A stretch of DNA of 40,000 bases. It comes from Deinococci bacterium (GTDB lineage: Bacteria > Deinococcota > Deinococci > Deinococcales > Trueperaceae). The DNA lies in contig JASBRS010000065.1 of assembly GCA_030149325.1 (NCBI GenBank), positions 1 to 40,000 of the forward strand, given 5' to 3'. The translations under genes were made by a program, and so were the position numbers. The notes beneath the pieces are model-generated. The model had not been told where the DNA came from. It did not search any database and saw nothing but the letters and a program-made list of their open reading frames with translations. Each line of letters starts with the position of its first letter. The stretch's first letter is position 1. This document shows, piece by piece, positions 14,418-25,244 of this stretch.

Positions 14418-15572
14418 GTGAAGGCGCCTTCCCGCCTCCAGCGACTCGCCACCGTCAACGCCATCGGCGACGCCCTCAATGCCGCCCCCACCTTCCAGGA
14501 GGCCGCTCCCGAGGCCCTGACGCGGCTGTTGGAGCGCGTGGCCCTGAGTGCCGGCTGGTGGTTCCTGTCGACCGTCGACGAGGGCGATCCGCACGAGGGC
14601 GGCTTCCGGCTGGCGGCCGCCACCGGCCTGCCGCCCGCACTCGCTCACGACGATGCCGCACCCCTACGTCGCGCCGGCTGCGAGTGCCAGCGCCTGCTCC
14701 GCAGCGGCCAGCTCGAACGCGGCATCAACATGGTGACCTGCAGCCGGCTGCGCGACGCTCACGGCGACAAGGGGGGGCTGACCATCCACGCCAGCGTTCC
14801 GCTCCCCGGCCACGACGGCCCGGTGGGCATCCTGAACCTGGCTGCGCCCGGGGATACCCGGTTCGACGACGAGACGCTGGCCTTCCTCGCGGCAGTGGGG
14901 CGACAGCTCGCCGTCGCCTACGATCGCTCCCGGCTGCTGGACGAACGCACCCGGCAGGCGCGCTACGCCGCTGCCCTCGAGGAACGTCAACGTCTGGCCC
15001 AGGACATGCACGACTCCCTGGCCCAGCTCCTGTTCGCGGCCGACCTGTCGCTGACCGTGGCGGCCCAGCACCCGGAGCCCGCAGGGCGCCAGCGAGCCGC
15101 GGACGATGCCGCCGAGTCGGTCCGAGCTGCGCTCGCCGAGCTGCGGTCGCTGGTCGAGGTGATGCGGCCGGCCGACCTCTCGGCCGGCCTTCGCACGGCC
15201 CTCCAGCGCCTCGCGCGCCGAACGCGAGGCTCGCTGCGCGTGCACCTGGAGCTCCCCGACGAGGAGCCCGACGCGGAGCTGGCCGAGGCCCTCTACCGCA
15301 TCGCCCAGGAGGCGGTCCACAACAGCCTCCGGCACGGGGGCGCCTCCAGCCTGTGGCTGCGCCTGGAGCGCTCCGGTGATCGCCTTCGTCTGGTCGTGGA
15401 CGATGACGGCGTAGGCTTCGGTCCCCACCCCGAAGAGCGCCTGGGCAGCGGTTTCGGGCTGGCGGGGATGCGTGACCGCGCCCTGCGGGTGGGGGGCACC
15501 GTGACGTTCGGCAACCGCCCGCAGGGCGGTGTCCGCATCGAGGCGGAGGTCCCGTGGTCAGCCGCGTCCTGA
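14418..15572 (+). CDS. GAF-domain histidine kinase, NarL/LuxR-system type
   Basis: Sensor kinase of a two-component system, 384 residues, with no membrane helix or signal peptide, so it probably senses a cytoplasmic or diffusible signal. Residues 15-170 look like a GAF domain with several cysteines (CECQ, TCSR). A HisKA_3 dimerisation segment carries the phosphorylated His198 ([13 protein letters not shown]). The C-terminal ATPase domain has the N-box ([10 protein letters not shown]), the G1 box DDDGVGF and [12 protein letters not shown]. The GTG start sits 6 nt after a -10 box. The 3' end overlaps the response regulator by 19 nt, which implies translational coupling. The ligand is unknown; a metal or heme site in the GAF domain is possible but unproven. 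Confidence 0.9.
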
Positions 15573-16159
15573 TCGTCGACGATCATCCGGTGGTACGCGC
15601 CGGGCTGCGGTCGTTCCTGGAACTCCAGCCCGACTTCGAGGTCGTGGCCGAGGCCGGCGACCTGCGCAGCGCGGCCGAGGCCTTCGAGGCGACACACCCC
15701 GACCTCGTGCTCCTCGACGTGCAACTCCCCGACGGCAACGGCCTCGCGCTCCTCGATGCCTTCGTCGGGAGCGCGCGCGTGCTCGTCCTGAGCAGCTACC
15801 TCGACGAGGGCAAGGTGCGCCAGGCCATGCGCCTCGGCGCGGCCGGCTACGTCCTCAAGCACGCGGGTCCGGCGGCCCTGCTCGACAAGGTGCGCGCCGC
15901 CCTGCGCGGAGAGCTGCCGCTCGATCCCGAAGCGGTACGGGCGCTGACGTCGGCCGACGTCGACCCCTTCGCCGAGCTCACGCCGCGCGAGCGCCAGGTG
16001 CTCGCGCTCATGGCCGAGGGCCTCAGCAACAAGGCTATCGCCGCGCGGCTGACGATCAGCGAGAAGACGGTCAAGACGCACGCCAGCCACGTCTTCGCCA
16101 AGCTCGACGTGCGCGACCGGGTGCAGGCGGTGCTGATCGCCAAGCAGCACGGCTGGTAG
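15554..16159 (+). CDS. LuxR/NarL-family response regulator
   Basis: DNA-binding partner of the overlapping kinase, 201 residues. The receiver domain has the acidic pair in [10 protein letters not shown] and the phospho-acceptor Asp55 (LVLLDVQLPDGNG). A C-terminal LuxR-type helix-turn-helix spans about residues 140-200 (LTPRERQVLALMAEGLSNK, then KTVKTHASHVFAKL). The GTG start lies inside the kinase gene. Its targets are unknown; nothing nearby shows an obvious binding site. It ends 15 nt from the convergent SDR gene. Confidence 0.92.
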   Translation: MVSRVLIVDDHPVVRAGLRSFLELQPDFEVVAEAGDLRSAAEAFEATHPDLVLLDVQLPDGNGLALLDAFVGSARVLVLSSYLDEGKVRQAMRLGAAGYVLKHAGPAALLDKVRAALRGELPLDPEAVRALTSADVDPFAELTPRERQVLALMAEGLSNKAIAARLTISEKTVKTHASHVFAKLDVRDRVQAVLIAKQHGW

Positions 16160-16174: not shown

Positions 16175-17041
16175 TCACTCCCGATCGGCGGCCGTCGCCA
16201 CCACCGGCTCGGTGGTCGATACCCGCACCTCGATCTCGCGCCCGGGACGCTGCAGCAGCCTCCGAACGAGCTCCCGCACGACCCCCGCCAGCATGCGCCG
16301 GGGCGTCAGCAGGCTCGGGGCGAGCCCGGTCTTCCCGTCGGTGGCGCTCGAGGCCAGCTCGACGACCGTCCCGGCCGGCACGTCGGGGTCCTCGCCCCAG
16401 AGCCGCAGCACCGTCGCGAACGGCCGCATGCGGTCCTCGTAGCCTCGGATGGCCCGCACCTCGCCGACCATGTCGGTCAGCATCAGCCCGGGATTGAAGG
16501 CGAGGACGCTGATGCCGCTCCCCCGCGTCTCCCGGGCGAGCGCCAGCGTGAAGCTCCGTACCCAGGCCTTGGACGAGGCGTAGGCGTTCTGGTTGGGGAC
16601 CGGGCCGCGGTCGCCCCGGCCGAGCGTGTTGATCAGCTTGCCCGAGCCCTGGCCGAGGAAGTGGCGGACCGCGACCATCGAGCCCAGGTACACGCCGCGC
16701 ACGTTGGTGTCGAGCACGCGCAGGAAGTCCTCGTCCGGGACCGCCGGGGTCGGGCCGTAGGGGCCGGACACGCCGGCGTTGTTGACCCACACGTCGAGCC
16801 GCCCGAAGCTCGCGAGCGCGGCTCGCGCCAGGGCCTCGTGGTCTTCACGCCGCGTCACGTCGGCCACCACGCCTACGGACACCTCCGGGCCGAGCTCCGC
16901 TACCGCCGCGTCGACCGCCGCGCGCGAGCGCGAGCTCACCACCACCCGAGCGCCCTCGCGAACGAAGGCGGCAGCCGTGGCCCGCCCGAAGCCGCGCGTG
17001 CTGCCGGTGACCACCGCCACCCTCCCGTCGAGCCTTCCCAT
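16175..17041 (-). CDS. Short-chain dehydrogenase/reductase
   Basis: A 288-residue Rossmann-fold SDR, probably using NADP(H). The nucleotide motif is TGSTRGFG (residues 12-19), NNAG occurs in WVNNAGVSG, and the catalytic Tyr and Lys are in YASSK. The position normally holding the catalytic Ser reads LINTLGRGD, so that residue may be replaced or shifted. The C-terminal 40 residues extend beyond a minimal SDR. The start is the ATG at 17041 with GGGGAGG 7 nt upstream; longer in-frame starts lack support. It diverges from the four-gene operon starting at 17178. Substrate unknown. Confidence 0.85.
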   Translation of the reverse strand: MGRLDGRVAVVTGSTRGFGRATAAAFVREGARVVVSSRSRAAVDAAVAELGPEVSVGVVADVTRREDHEALARAALASFGRLDVWVNNAGVSGPYGPTPAVPDEDFLRVLDTNVRGVYLGSMVAVRHFLGQGSGKLINTLGRGDRGPVPNQNAYASSKAWVRSFTLALARETRGSGISVLAFNPGLMLTDMVGEVRAIRGYEDRMRPFATVLRLWGEDPDVPAGTVVELASSATDGKTGLAPSLLTPRRMLAGVVRELVRRLLQRPGREIEVRVSTTEPVVATAADRE

Positions 17042-17177: not shown

Positions 17178-17351
17178 ATGCCCTTGGACCACTCCCTCGC
17201 CACGGAGGCCCTGATCGCGCGCAGCCTGCGCGAGGCCCGTCGCGCCGCCCGCCAGGACCCCTACAGCCCGACCGCGCCCGATCGATCCTCGGCCCGTCGA
17301 CGTCCCAGCTGGGCCGAACTCGTCCGCCCCGGTCGCGCGACGAACGCATGA
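17178..17351 (+). CDS. 57-residue protein, first gene of an overlapping four-gene operon
   Basis: I do not recognise this protein. It begins MPLDHSLATEALIARSLREA, an Arg-rich amphipathic stretch, followed by a basic, Pro-rich, probably disordered C-terminus. It has a good ribosome-binding site (GGAGG at 17166-17170, 7 nt from the ATG), and a CATACT box at 17153-17158 may be the -10. Its stop codon overlaps the ATG of the next gene (ATGA at 17348-17351), which argues that it is really translated. Whether the peptide has its own job or mainly couples translation of the SDR cannot be told. Confidence 0.6.
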   Translation: MPLDHSLATEALIARSLREARRAARQDPYSPTAPDRSSARRRPSWAELVRPGRATNA

Positions 17352-18094
17352 GCGCCGACCGCATGCCGAGCTCGCCGGCGCCCAGGGCCGTCGTCACCGG
17401 CGCCAGCCGCGGGCACGGCCTGGCGCTGGCGCGCTTCCTGGCGGGCGCCGGCTACGAGGTCGTGGTGACGGCCCGGGACTCCGCCGCCCTGGCGCTGGCG
17501 CGAGCCGAGATCGCGGCGGTGGGGCGCGTCAGCGCCGTCCCAGGCGACGTCGGCGACCCCGCCCACCGCGCGGCCCTGGTCGAGCGCGTCGGCGATCGCC
17601 TCGACCTGCTCGTCCACAACGCTTCGGAGCTCGGGCCCAGTCCGCTGCCCGCCCTGGCGACGGCCGACGCCGCCGCCTTCCGAGCCGTCCTCGAGACCAA
17701 CCTGGTCGCCCCGCTCGCCCTCACGCAGGCGCTGCTGCCCGCCCTGCGGCGGGCCGGCGGCCTCATCGCCGCCGTCTCCTCCGACGCCGCCCAGGGCGCC
17801 TACCCGGGCTGGGGCCTGTACGGCGCCAGCAAGGCCGCGCTCGAGCTCCTGGCCCGGACGCTGGCCGCCGAGATCGGCGACGTCGCGACGGTGATCGTCG
17901 ATCCCGGCGACATGCGGACCCCCATGCACCAGCTCGCCTTCCCGGGCGAGGACATCGGGGACCGACCGCTCCCCGAGGTCACCCTGCCGTTCTGGGCGTG
18001 GCTGATCGGCCAGTCCCGGACCGCCGTGACCGGCGGGCGCTTCGAGGCCCAGGCCGACGACTGGACCCTCCCCGTCGACACGGTCGCGTCGTGA
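17348..18094 (+). CDS. Short-chain dehydrogenase/reductase in the QueA-like operon
   Basis: A 248-residue SDR with the nucleotide motif TGASRGHG (residues 17-24), VHNAS in place of NNAG, catalytic Ser in AVSSDA and Tyr/Lys in YGASK. The C-terminal segment (WLIGQSRTAVTGGRFEAQADDW) is typical of SDRs acting on small carbonyl or hydroxyl substrates. Both ends overlap neighbours by 4 nt: ATGA with the 57-residue gene and GTGA with the QueA-like gene. The substrate is unknown; the context suggests it works with the QueA-like and metallo-beta-lactamase proteins. Confidence 0.88.
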   Translation: MSADRMPSSPAPRAVVTGASRGHGLALARFLAGAGYEVVVTARDSAALALARAEIAAVGRVSAVPGDVGDPAHRAALVERVGDRLDLLVHNASELGPSPLPALATADAAAFRAVLETNLVAPLALTQALLPALRRAGGLIAAVSSDAAQGAYPGWGLYGASKAALELLARTLAAEIGDVATVIVDPGDMRTPMHQLAFPGEDIGDRPLPEVTLPFWAWLIGQSRTAVTGGRFEAQADDWTLPVDTVAS

Positions 18095-19122
18095 TCCCCG
18101 CAACCCGCCCGCCCGTGGCCGACCGCCCCCCCGAAGCTCGCGGACGGGCACGCGACCAGGTGCGGTTGCTGGTGTCCACGGACGCCGACGACCGCCACGC
18201 CGAATTCCGCGATCTGCCCGACCTCCTCGCTCCGGGCGATCTGCTGGTCGTCAACGACAGCGCCACCCTGGCGGCTGCCCTCCCCGCCGAGGCCGCGCTG
18301 GGGCCCTTCCGTCTCCACCTCTCGACGCGCTACGCTCCCTGCCTGTGGCTGGCCGAGCCGCGCTGGAGCGTGGAGCGCCCCGGCCCGCTGCCGCTCGCTG
18401 CCGGCGAGGGGATCCACGTCGGCCGGCGAGAACGGATCCGCGCCCGGATCGTCGCTCCCCATCCGCAGCTCCCGCGCCTGACGTTCGTGGCGACCGAGAG
18501 ACCCCTCGATCCCACCCTGGCCGCCGACGGCGAGCCGATCCGCTATCGCTACCTGGCGCGGCCGCAACCGCTCGACGCCTACCAGACGGTGTTCGCGCGC
18601 ACGCCCGGGAGCGCCGAGATGCCCTCGGCCGCACGCCCCTTCAGCGCGGCGACGGTCACGGCCCTCCGGGCCGCCGGCATCGAGCTGGCCAGCCTCACGC
18701 TGCACACCGGCGTCAGCAGTCTGGAGGCCGGCGACGCTCCGGTGCTCTACGCCGAGCCGTTCCGCGTCGAGCGCGCCACCGCCGACGCCATCGCACGGAC
18801 CCGCGCGCGCGGCGGTCGCGTCATCGCGGTGGGAACGACCGTGGTGCGCGCCCTCGAGACCGCCTTCCGCGACGGGGCGGTCCGGCCCAGCCGCGGCTTC
18901 ACCCGGCGCTTCGTTCGGCCCGGACAGGTGCACGGCGCTGCCGACGGGATGATCACCGGCTTCCACGAAGCCGCCAGCACCCACCAGGCCCTGCTCGCCG
19001 CCGTGGTCGGCCCCGAGGTGGTCCACCGCGCCTATCGCACGGCCCTCGCGACGGGGTACCTGTGGCACGAGTTCGGCGACAGCCACCTGCTGCTGCGACG
19101 GCACGGATCGTCCCTGGCATGA
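18091..19122 (+). CDS. QueA-like protein (SAM:tRNA ribosyltransferase-isomerase family)
   Basis: A 343-residue member of the QueA fold. True QueA transfers and isomerises ribose from SAM onto 7-aminomethyl-deazaguanine in tRNA. Family landmarks are present: LLAPGDLLVVNDSATL, YQTVFARTPGSAEMPSAARPF, TLHTGVSSLE, VIAVGTTVVRALE, DGMITGFHEAAST and a final GDSHLL. Several differ from true QueA, which has versions such as APTAGLHF, TLHVGAGTF and ITNFHLPxST. It is therefore better called a paralogue whose reaction is unknown. The GTG start overlaps the SDR stop (GTGA), and the end overlaps the next ATG. No other queuosine genes are visible here. Confidence 0.8.
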   Translation: MIPATRPPVADRPPEARGRARDQVRLLVSTDADDRHAEFRDLPDLLAPGDLLVVNDSATLAAALPAEAALGPFRLHLSTRYAPCLWLAEPRWSVERPGPLPLAAGEGIHVGRRERIRARIVAPHPQLPRLTFVATERPLDPTLAADGEPIRYRYLARPQPLDAYQTVFARTPGSAEMPSAARPFSAATVTALRAAGIELASLTLHTGVSSLEAGDAPVLYAEPFRVERATADAIARTRARGGRVIAVGTTVVRALETAFRDGAVRPSRGFTRRFVRPGQVHGAADGMITGFHEAASTHQALLAAVVGPEVVHRAYRTALATGYLWHEFGDSHLLLRRHGSSLA

Positions 19123-20018
19123 TGGGAGTCGAGGAGGTCCCCGATGCCCTGCGACGGGAGAGCCCGAGCGTGAGCGGCGCCACGACCTTCGTGTGCGCGA
19201 CCTGCGGCACCGCCTTCCCACCGGCCGACCGGCCGCCGGAGCACTGCCCGGTGTGCGAGGACGTCCGTCAGTACGTGCCCGAAGGCGGGCAGCGCTGGAC
19301 CACGCCGGTGGAGCTGGCCTCGGTGCACGGCAACCGCATCGAGCGGCTCGAGCCCGGCCTCTACGCCATCCGCAGCGACCCCGCCTTCGCCATCGGACAG
19401 CGCGCCCTGCTGCTGCAGACGGCCGACGGCAACGTGCTGTGGGACTGCGTCACGCTCCTCGATCGCGCCACCGTGGAGGCGGTGCGCACGCTTGGCGGCA
19501 TCGACGCCATCGCCGTCAGCCACCCCCACTACTACAGCGCGCACCGCGCCTGGGCCGAGGCGTTCGACGCGCCCGTCTACCTGCACGGCGCCGATCGCGC
19601 CTGGGTGGTCGACCCGCACCCGCGGCTCCACGCCTGGGAGGGCGAGACCCACCGCTGGTTGGGGGGCACCACCCTGATCCGGGCCGGCGGTCACTTCCCC
19701 GGCGGCACCGTGCTCCACTGGCCCGACGGCGCCGGCGGGGCCGGGACGCTGCTCAGCGGCGACATCCTGCAGGTCGTGCCCGACCGCGGCGTGGTGGGGT
19801 TCATGTACTCGTACCCCAACTACCTGCCCCTGCCCGCCTGGGAGGTCGACGCCATCGCCGCCTCGGTCGAGCCGTTCGCCTTCGATCGCATCCACGGCGC
19901 CTTCGCCGGGCGCACCATCGTCAGCGGCGGCAAGGAGGCCATCGAGCGCGCCCGCGTGCGGTACCGGCGCGCCCTGGACGGCGATCTCCCGGGGTTGCGC
20001 CCCCGACCGGACGCCTGA
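19119..20018 (+). CDS. Zinc-ribbon metallo-beta-lactamase-fold protein
   Basis: A 299-residue protein with an N-terminal rubredoxin/zinc-ribbon-like knuckle (CATCGTAF then CPVCEDV, residues about 27-47) joined to a metallo-beta-lactamase-like domain. The usual HxHxDH metal motif is replaced by SHPHYYSAH; later ligand-like positions are GGHFPGG, LSGDILQ and IHGAF. Proteins of this type are annotated only as MBL-fold hydrolases; the substrate is unknown. The ATG at 19119 overlaps the QueA-like stop (ATGA); an adjacent ATG at 19122 and a GTG at 19170 are alternatives. It closes the four-gene operon and is followed by a convergent BrxC-like gene. Confidence 0.83.
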   Translation: MMGVEEVPDALRRESPSVSGATTFVCATCGTAFPPADRPPEHCPVCEDVRQYVPEGGQRWTTPVELASVHGNRIERLEPGLYAIRSDPAFAIGQRALLLQTADGNVLWDCVTLLDRATVEAVRTLGGIDAIAVSHPHYYSAHRAWAEAFDAPVYLHGADRAWVVDPHPRLHAWEGETHRWLGGTTLIRAGGHFPGGTVLHWPDGAGGAGTLLSGDILQVVPDRGVVGFMYSYPNYLPLPAWEVDAIAASVEPFAFDRIHGAFAGRTIVSGGKEAIERARVRYRRALDGDLPGLRPRPDA

Positions 20019-20103: not shown

Positions 20104-20757
<654 letters not shown>

Positions 20758-20780
20758 GCTCACGCCTCCTGCGCACTGCG

Positions 20781-20786
20781 ATTGTA
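20781..20786 (-). promoter_or_regulatory. -10 box of the BrxC-like gene
   Basis: TACAAT on the minus strand, about 24 nt before the ATG, gives a short leader that includes the AGGAGG ribosome site at 20765-20770. No clear -35. Confidence 0.45.
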
Positions 20787-20847
20787 GATTCCGGGGCCCC
20801 CCGACCGATGTCGCGGTGCGCACGCTCGTCGCGGCCGCCGCGCTTCG

Positions 20848-24523: not shown

Positions 24524-25207
24524 TCAGGCCTGGGCCGGCGCCTGGCTCACCTGCTTGAGCGCCTCCGCGAAGGCGTGCTCCGGCTGCGCACCGAGCACCC
24601 GGGTAGCGTTGGTGCCGGTCACGATGGTGTCGGGCACGCCCGAGATGCGGTGCTGCTGGGACAGCGTCGGGAACTCGTTGGCCTCGACGCCCTCGGCCAC
24701 GATGCGATCGTTGACCAGGGCGAAGCGGTAGGCGGTCAGCACGGCGCGCGGGCAGTACGGGCAGGTCGGCGTGACGAACGTCTGCAGGTGGATGCTCTCG
24801 TCGATCGCCTGCACGCTCTCGAGCGTGGGCGTCACCTCGACGTCGTCGCCTCCCAGCATGATCAGCGTCTCGAGCAGCGTCGTGAACTCGTAGCCGCTGG
24901 GGATGCCCAGGAAGCGGATGTTGCTGCGCGCCGTGCCCTTGCGACGGAACAGCGTGGTCGGGGCGCGCGTGATGCCGAGGGCGGCCGCCTCGTCGTCGGC
25001 GGCCAGGCTGCGCTCGACCACGTGCACGTGGTCGTTGAGGGCCGCGACCTCGTTCAGCAACTGGAGGGTGGCGTCCTGTTCTCCCGCAGGATCCTGGCCG
25101 GGAACGACGACCTGACCGGCCTTGTACACGACCATCTCCACGTCGTGCTGAAGGCCGCTGAGGGCGTCCCGGACCTGACCCTGGATGGACTCATCGAGAA
25201 AAGCCAT
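24524..25207 (-). CDS. PDO-type glutaredoxin-like disulfide oxidoreductase
   Basis: A 227-residue protein of two tandem thioredoxin folds, as in the protein disulfide oxidoreductase family best known from thermophiles. The C-terminal unit keeps the active site Cys149-Pro-Tyr-Cys152 (FVTPTCPYCP) and a cis-proline loop (ISGVPDTIV). The N-terminal unit keeps RAPTTLF but has no cysteine where many family members carry a second CXXC. It probably reduces disulfides or handles thiol/persulfide stress in the cytoplasm. The start is the ATG at 25207 after an AAGGAAGGGAG ribosome site. A CsoR/CstR-like inverted repeat overlaps its promoter. Confidence 0.85.
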   Translation of the reverse strand: MAFLDESIQGQVRDALSGLQHDVEMVVYKAGQVVVPGQDPAGEQDATLQLLNEVAALNDHVHVVERSLAADDEAAALGITRAPTTLFRRKGTARSNIRFLGIPSGYEFTTLLETLIMLGGDDVEVTPTLESVQAIDESIHLQTFVTPTCPYCPRAVLTAYRFALVNDRIVAEGVEANEFPTLSQQHRISGVPDTIVTGTNATRVLGAQPEHAFAEALKQVSQAPAQA

Positions 25208-25244
25208 GGTGGCTCCCTTCCTTCGAACCTCACTCAACGACGTC

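Follow-up and report, generated by a model that had tools for sequence, protein, structure and literature searches.

A short-chain dehydrogenase and a QueA-like protein form an apparently horizontally mobile two-gene module that is separate from queuosine and associated with redox-type regulators

For QueA (PF02547; TIGR00113; PDB 1WDI, 1VKY, 1YY3), a conversion of the ribose of S-adenosylmethionine (SAM) into an epoxy-cyclopentane on an amine via a sulfonium ylide has been proposed (PMC10491745). The QueA reaction is followed by a reduction carried out by the epoxyqueuosine reductases QueG or QueH. In a contig of a Deinococci bacterium of the Trueperaceae (GenBank assembly GCA_030149325.1, JASBRS010000065.1), we analysed a gene for a QueA-like protein, hereafter QueAL, which is preceded by the gene of a short-chain dehydrogenase/reductase (SDR). 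The window, i.e., the stretch of DNA analysed here, is this entire contig (C45; 40,000 bases), so that genes at either end may be incomplete; the source genome amounts to 3.04 Mb in 102 contigs. An original prediction, made from the letters of the window, had described a fully overlapping operon of four genes encoding a 57-residue protein, the SDR, the QueA-fold protein and a zinc-ribbon metallo-beta-lactamase (MBL) protein. All four open reading frames (ORFs) were recovered at their positions, but the conserved unit consists of two genes, SDR and QueAL, and is not a four-gene operon. The core features are as follows (aa, amino acids).

17348..18094, plus strand: SDR of 248 aa, core gene 1 (Pfam adh_short, 9.6e-36)
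18091..18094, plus strand: GTGA, 4-nt overlap of the SDR stop and the QueAL start (from the sequence)
18091..19122, plus strand: QueAL of 343 aa with a GTG start, core gene 2 (Pfam Queuosine_synth, 1.9e-66)

Three sets of genomes were compared, namely 61 genomes of the same order, which make the own-phylum sample a small one from a single order, a scan of a genome collection, in which the best 80 of 574 confirmed stretches were kept as loci (Thermoplasmata, Bathyarchaeota, Chloroflexota, Actinomycetota, Acidobacteriota, Eremiobacterota, Alphaproteobacteria and others), and, because these 80 were top scorers only, a second sample of 296 genomes drawn evenly across the actinobacterial phylum. 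Genes of the neighbourhoods were called with a codon-usage gene finder. The SDR gene lies immediately 5' of QueAL in 8/8 own-order relatives with QueAL (identity 47–61%). In the collection, whose closest named relative is a Trueperaceae metagenome-assembled genome (MAG; locus L044), it was found directly upstream on the same strand in 79 of the 80 loci, a short insert intervening in a small number of them; the upstream sequence of the eightieth ends after 95 nt. Seven further own-phylum loci showed the same order, and QueAL, present in 58/296 actinobacterial genomes, followed an SDR gene at all 57 places examined in 56 of these genomes; two apparent exceptions (G202, G290) were resolved as broken SDR reading frames. 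A gene-neighbourhood check, as suggested with the original prediction, thus spoke for the SDR at every locus with enough upstream sequence, in Archaea and several bacterial phyla, and against the MBL gene, which was found beside QueAL in 0/88 other loci, the small ORF being likewise absent.

The GTGA overlap at 18091 is present as predicted, and a 4-nt overlap also proved to be the commonest SDR/QueAL junction, seen in 55 of about 86 homologous gene models. Divergence of the two proteins is correlated (Mantel r 0.745, 0/999 permutations). In a maximum-likelihood tree of QueAL and QueA (quick version), the QueAL sequences of Deinococcota, Thermoplasmata and Alphaproteobacteria are intermingled, so that the pair seems to move together; plasmid and phage searches yielded just one actinomycete megarecord and canonical-like matches. 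Altogether, our analysis classified SDR-QueAL as a horizontally mobile, translationally coupled module, separate from queuosine and associated with redox-type regulators.

The QueA fold of the third predicted protein was confirmed. Queuosine_synth (PF02547) covers residues 10–334 of QueAL with 224.9 bits (cut-off 25), and the AlphaFold2 model (pLDDT 93.5) gave significant Foldseek matches to QueA structures only (E about 1e-23 to 1e-20, identity 24–29%). QueAL stays under both NCBIfam queA equivalog cut-offs, with 174.9 of 324 bits for NF001140 and 130 of 267.45 bits for TIGR00113. The PF02547 scores of the 61 own-order genomes fall into two groups, canonical QueA of other families at about 390–445 bits and QueAL, within the window's family, at 187–258 bits; one genome (G041) carries both. 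In the tree, QueAL is parted from canonical QueA by a single branch (length 0.91) that received 100% support in the SH-like approximate likelihood ratio test (SH-aLRT). The fold and a set of core residues are common to both; QueAL differs from QueA in its separate clade, its own invariant motifs, its constant SDR neighbour and its occurrence in genomes without tRNA-guanine transglycosylase (TGT). The residues shared with QueA include N55, Y164-Q165, G173-S174, H205, G207, G248-T249-T250, R253, E256 and H292. In 87 homologues, the canonical motifs PTAGLHFT, LPPYI and TNFH are exchanged for PSAxRPF, IRYxY and TGxH; in addition, YRFYSLGDA of QueA reads YLWHEFGDS in QueAL. Judged from this conservation pattern, the donor site would be retained in QueAL and the acceptor site changed.

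No TGT was detected in 17 of the 40 QueAL genomes tested, and 14 of these 17 showed a single PF02547 match and no second full-length one, or nearly so. The list of these TGT-less, QueAL-only genomes comprises mostly actinobacterial isolates, i.e., three Mycobacterium, two Nonomuraea, Acrocarpospora, Yinghuangia, Planotetraspora, Segeticoccus and others. Since they show no TGT, QueAL cannot act on preQ1-tRNA in these 14 genomes. Most archaeal QueAL genomes gave only a lower-scoring TGT match, which is presumably the archaeosine enzyme. Conversely, TGT is present in most genomes of the window's family, though most of them have neither QueA nor QueAL; these members may use salvaged queuine or contain a precursor base of Q. 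From TGT-less QueAL genomes on the one hand and QueAL-less TGT genomes on the other, it follows that TGT and QueAL are uncoupled.

These findings bear on the reading in which QueAL would be a working, if divergent, QueA and the SDR would stand in for QueG/QueH as epoxyqueuosine reductase. Its Pfam family and fold are those of QueA, and the window's genome encodes TGT and no PF02547 protein besides QueAL, which would fit. Nevertheless, we consider it very unlikely in view of the 14/40 genomes without TGT and canonical QueA, the roughly 15/40 in which canonical QueA occurs alongside QueAL, the majority of the window's family, in which TGT is found but neither QueA nor QueAL, and the invariant residues that took the place of the substrate-region motifs of QueA. 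QueAL as a replacement QueA was rejected on the absence of TGT and the co-occurrence with canonical QueA. Regarding the substrates proposed originally, the tRNA or nucleoside one is thereby contradicted as far as tRNA queuosine is concerned, and a SAM-derived substrate is still likely. A Pfam scan labels QueAL as a queuosine enzyme, which is probably wrong in about one fifth of the sampled actinobacterial genomes (58/296) and in many archaea. As a separate observation, the TGT of the window's family (G000:C85:67686-68855, family f1 genomes) has in most cases about 30 residues inserted around position 91.

The SDR of the pair shares its Rossmann motif, N-S-Y-K tetrad and an Arg after strand 2 with classical NADP(H)-type SDRs, such as YciK-like and sepiapterin-reductase-like structures. 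Among 37 homologues, the tetrad N118, S145, Y158 and K162 as well as R43 are invariant, and T17-G18, G22 and G24 of the TGxxxGxG motif are invariant or nearly so. An Arg following strand 2 is typical of NADPH-using SDRs. The protein differs from classical SDRs by its own C-terminal signature, DPGDMRTxMHQxAFPGEDISDRPLP, and passes no NCBIfam SDR cut-off among the best 25 matches listed.

Redox-type regulators directly flank the pair in 47/87 loci. They belong to three unrelated families in six arrangements, namely a GAF-HisKA_3 kinase with a NarL regulator, a SufR-like protein, and SoxR. Known stress operons are controlled by SoxR-, SufR- and NarL-type regulators, i.e., the same types as those linked to the pair; no description of such a regulon containing SDR-QueAL was found in the open-access literature. 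The original prediction had included neither these regulators nor the VOC domains described below. In the window, the regulators and the remaining features around the pair are the following.

14418..15572, plus strand: GAF-HisKA_3 sensor histidine kinase, putative redox sensor of the module (Pfam GAF_2, HisKA_3, HATPase_c)
15554..16159, plus strand: NarL/LuxR-type response regulator, partner of the kinase (Pfam Response_reg, GerE)
16175..17038, minus strand: second classical SDR, unrelated, between the response regulator and the pair (adh_short, 5.4e-44)
17178..17351, plus strand: 57-aa ORF, outside the conserved unit (good ribosome-binding site, GGAGGT)
19170..20018, plus strand: zinc-ribbon MBL-like protein, probable start GTG 19170 from the comparison with locus L119 (earlier start 19119)
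20104..20823, minus strand: bacilliredoxin BrxC/AbxC-like protein, convergent (Pfam BrxC, 8.5e-22)
24524..25237, minus strand: protein with a Thioredoxin_3 match

The kinase pair of the window (14418–16159) sits one gene upstream of SDR-QueAL, the gene in between being the opposite-strand SDR, which is only 33% identical to the SDR of the pair. By similarity, the window's kinase groups with 38 further kinase ORFs from the vicinity of the pair, its response regulator belongs to a cluster of 39 such regulators found there, and the kinase is 54% identical to kinases located 3' of QueAL in three own-phylum loci (L125, L126, L129). A GAF domain with C-x-C and a later CSRL cysteine was identified in 16/39 kinases, including that of the window. 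SoxR lies divergently upstream of the pair in three mycobacteria (L071, L074, L111); the protein of L074 reached 197 bits (equivalog cut-off 116.9), and the four-cysteine motif CIGCGCLSLxRC was found in 7/7 SoxR proteins. The remaining family, from archaea and Acidimicrobiia, did not reach the SufR equivalog cut-off (108.8 of 178.8 bits in L066) and shows three invariant cysteines, and is therefore only called SufR-like.

Apart from regulators, more than a dozen loci from Rubrobacter-like actinobacteria, Anaerolineae and own-phylum relatives encode a VOC domain, either joined to the SDR or within the operon. In the fusions, located directly 5' of QueAL, the VOC/glyoxalase domain follows the SDR C-terminus (L087:6667-7773, L112:6826-7932, L124, L125 and L129). 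Fos thiol transferase families were the best, weak matches of one VOC partner. Fos-type VOC enzymes open epoxides using thiols. The slot 3' of QueAL looks like a variable accessory position: a SnoaL-like protein is encoded directly there in L033 (5970-6338, 4-nt overlap) and L028 (891-1268), followed by a GAF kinase, the three mycobacteria with the divergent SoxR carry genes for an acyl-CoA ligase of the FadD4 type and a protein resembling enoyl-CoA hydratase 3' of the pair, and in the window the MBL gene takes this place.

Based on these data, we favour, with a probability of about 55%, the reading that the pair is under redox control, with SAM used by QueAL on an acceptor other than tRNA and a linked intermediate handled by the SDR. 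QueAL would then be a QueA paralogue with the fold and core residues kept and an altered acceptor region. SAM would most likely give ribosyl carbons to the reaction, with release of adenine and methionine, and these carbons would be attached to or cyclised on a small-molecule acceptor and not on preQ1 in tRNA. The NADPH-type classical SDR would reduce, or beforehand prepare, the linked carbonyl or epoxide intermediate. Here, it would take the same logical role as QueG/QueH, i.e., a reduction after a QueA-type reaction; these protein families are unrelated to the SDR, and epoxide reduction by an SDR is hypothesised by us. Depending on the lineage, one or another redox-type regulator would switch the translationally coupled pair.

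Several points weigh against this reading. At roughly one locus in two, no regulator was recognised beside the pair, and in the window itself the kinase pair is one gene removed from the module. The association with regulators is partly inherited, as 13 of the 47 cases represent one divergent arrangement, mostly from Streptosporangiales. Several of the TGT-negative genomes are draft MAGs; the isolates, however, are large assemblies. No acceptor for QueAL was found, and the solved QueA structures that were found include no ligand-bound one, so that retention of the SAM site is deduced from conservation.

The same regulators and neighbours also fit detoxification or self-protection, in which SAM would serve QueAL to modify or consume an electrophilic or redox-active compound, and reactive carbonyls and epoxides would be reduced or opened by the SDR, the VOC proteins and other accessory enzymes. 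The SoxR, SufR-like and GAF-kinase regulators, the VOC partners, one of them most similar, if weakly, to Fos thiol transferases, and the bacilliredoxin neighbour count in its favour; SoxR is described as sensing redox-active compounds (PMC5288332). Given that the same regulators also serve in biosynthesis and in Fe-S homeostasis, that there is no known toxin substrate and that the accessory genes vary, we regard detoxification as a minor possibility. More doubtful still is a role in which, under redox stress or at low oxygen, the pair would convert SAM into a small carbocyclic metabolite, either diffusible or resembling a cofactor. For such a product, the fixed two-gene core spread over two domains and the epoxy-cyclopentane made by QueA from SAM ribose (PMC10491745) can be cited, but no transporter and no consistent third biosynthetic gene accompany the pair, which leaves two enzymes only.

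A bolder, tentative reading is that SDR-QueAL represents a SAM-consuming pathway to a carbocyclic (epoxy-cyclopentane-type) small molecule or conjugate under redox stress, horizontally spread across bacteria and archaea, unrelated to tRNA queuosine and previously undescribed. Searches of the open-access literature for QueA-like proteins, QueA with SoxR and QueA in natural-product clusters revealed no earlier description of the pair, subscription papers and preprints being outside their scope. We know of no earlier use of QueA ylide chemistry outside tRNA; if QueAL does use SAM ribose on a small molecule, it would be the first such case, as far as known, with a ready-made partner enzyme and with regulators that hint at how to induce the pair.

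Of the other two ORFs joined to the pair in the original prediction, the 57-aa ORF overlaps the SDR start by the ATGA at 17348, which is present in the DNA though the ORF is probably no gene. Its codon-position GC content (0.74/0.68/0.84) differs from that of the SDR (0.79/0.56/0.97) and QueAL (0.78/0.57/0.90), the gene finder made no call, and no relative was detected in any locus compared; probably it is non-coding or a lineage-specific leader. The MBL gene is a local neighbour unlinked to the pair. Its nearest homologue (L119) starts at a GTG equivalent to GTG 19170 of the window, therefore leaving a gap of about 47 nt to QueAL, and by this comparison the third overlap, ATGA at 19119, is probably absent in vivo. 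The zinc-ribbon cysteines of the protein are visible as predicted, no Pfam or NCBIfam model passes, and the MBL fold is suggested by a weak match to 2zwr (E 9e-4), the HxHxDH position reading SHPHYYSAH. The family was found in 9/61 genomes of the order, unlinked to QueAL; the homologues of relatives lie on other contigs and also in genomes lacking QueAL. The tight spacing in the window is what speaks for one pathway of all four genes. Given that the MBL gene and the 57-aa ORF are missing from all 88 other loci, that MBL homologues are unlinked and that the likely MBL start removes an overlap, this pathway is scarcely credible and was rejected; of the shared function proposed, the SDR-QueAL part is supported, and far more strongly than could be told from the window alone.

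Downstream, the bacilliredoxin of the window matched the AbxC model at 6e-61 but under the cut-off; a bacilliredoxin model matched by this protein bears a name that points to Deinococcus. A bacilliredoxin-like gene (cluster 34) also occurs near the pair in L031 and L035, being convergent or close in three loci including the window. The C-terminus of the window's protein matches a colicin-immunity-like domain. The Thioredoxin_3 match adds another thiol-redox gene to the surroundings, no more than about 5 kb from the pair.

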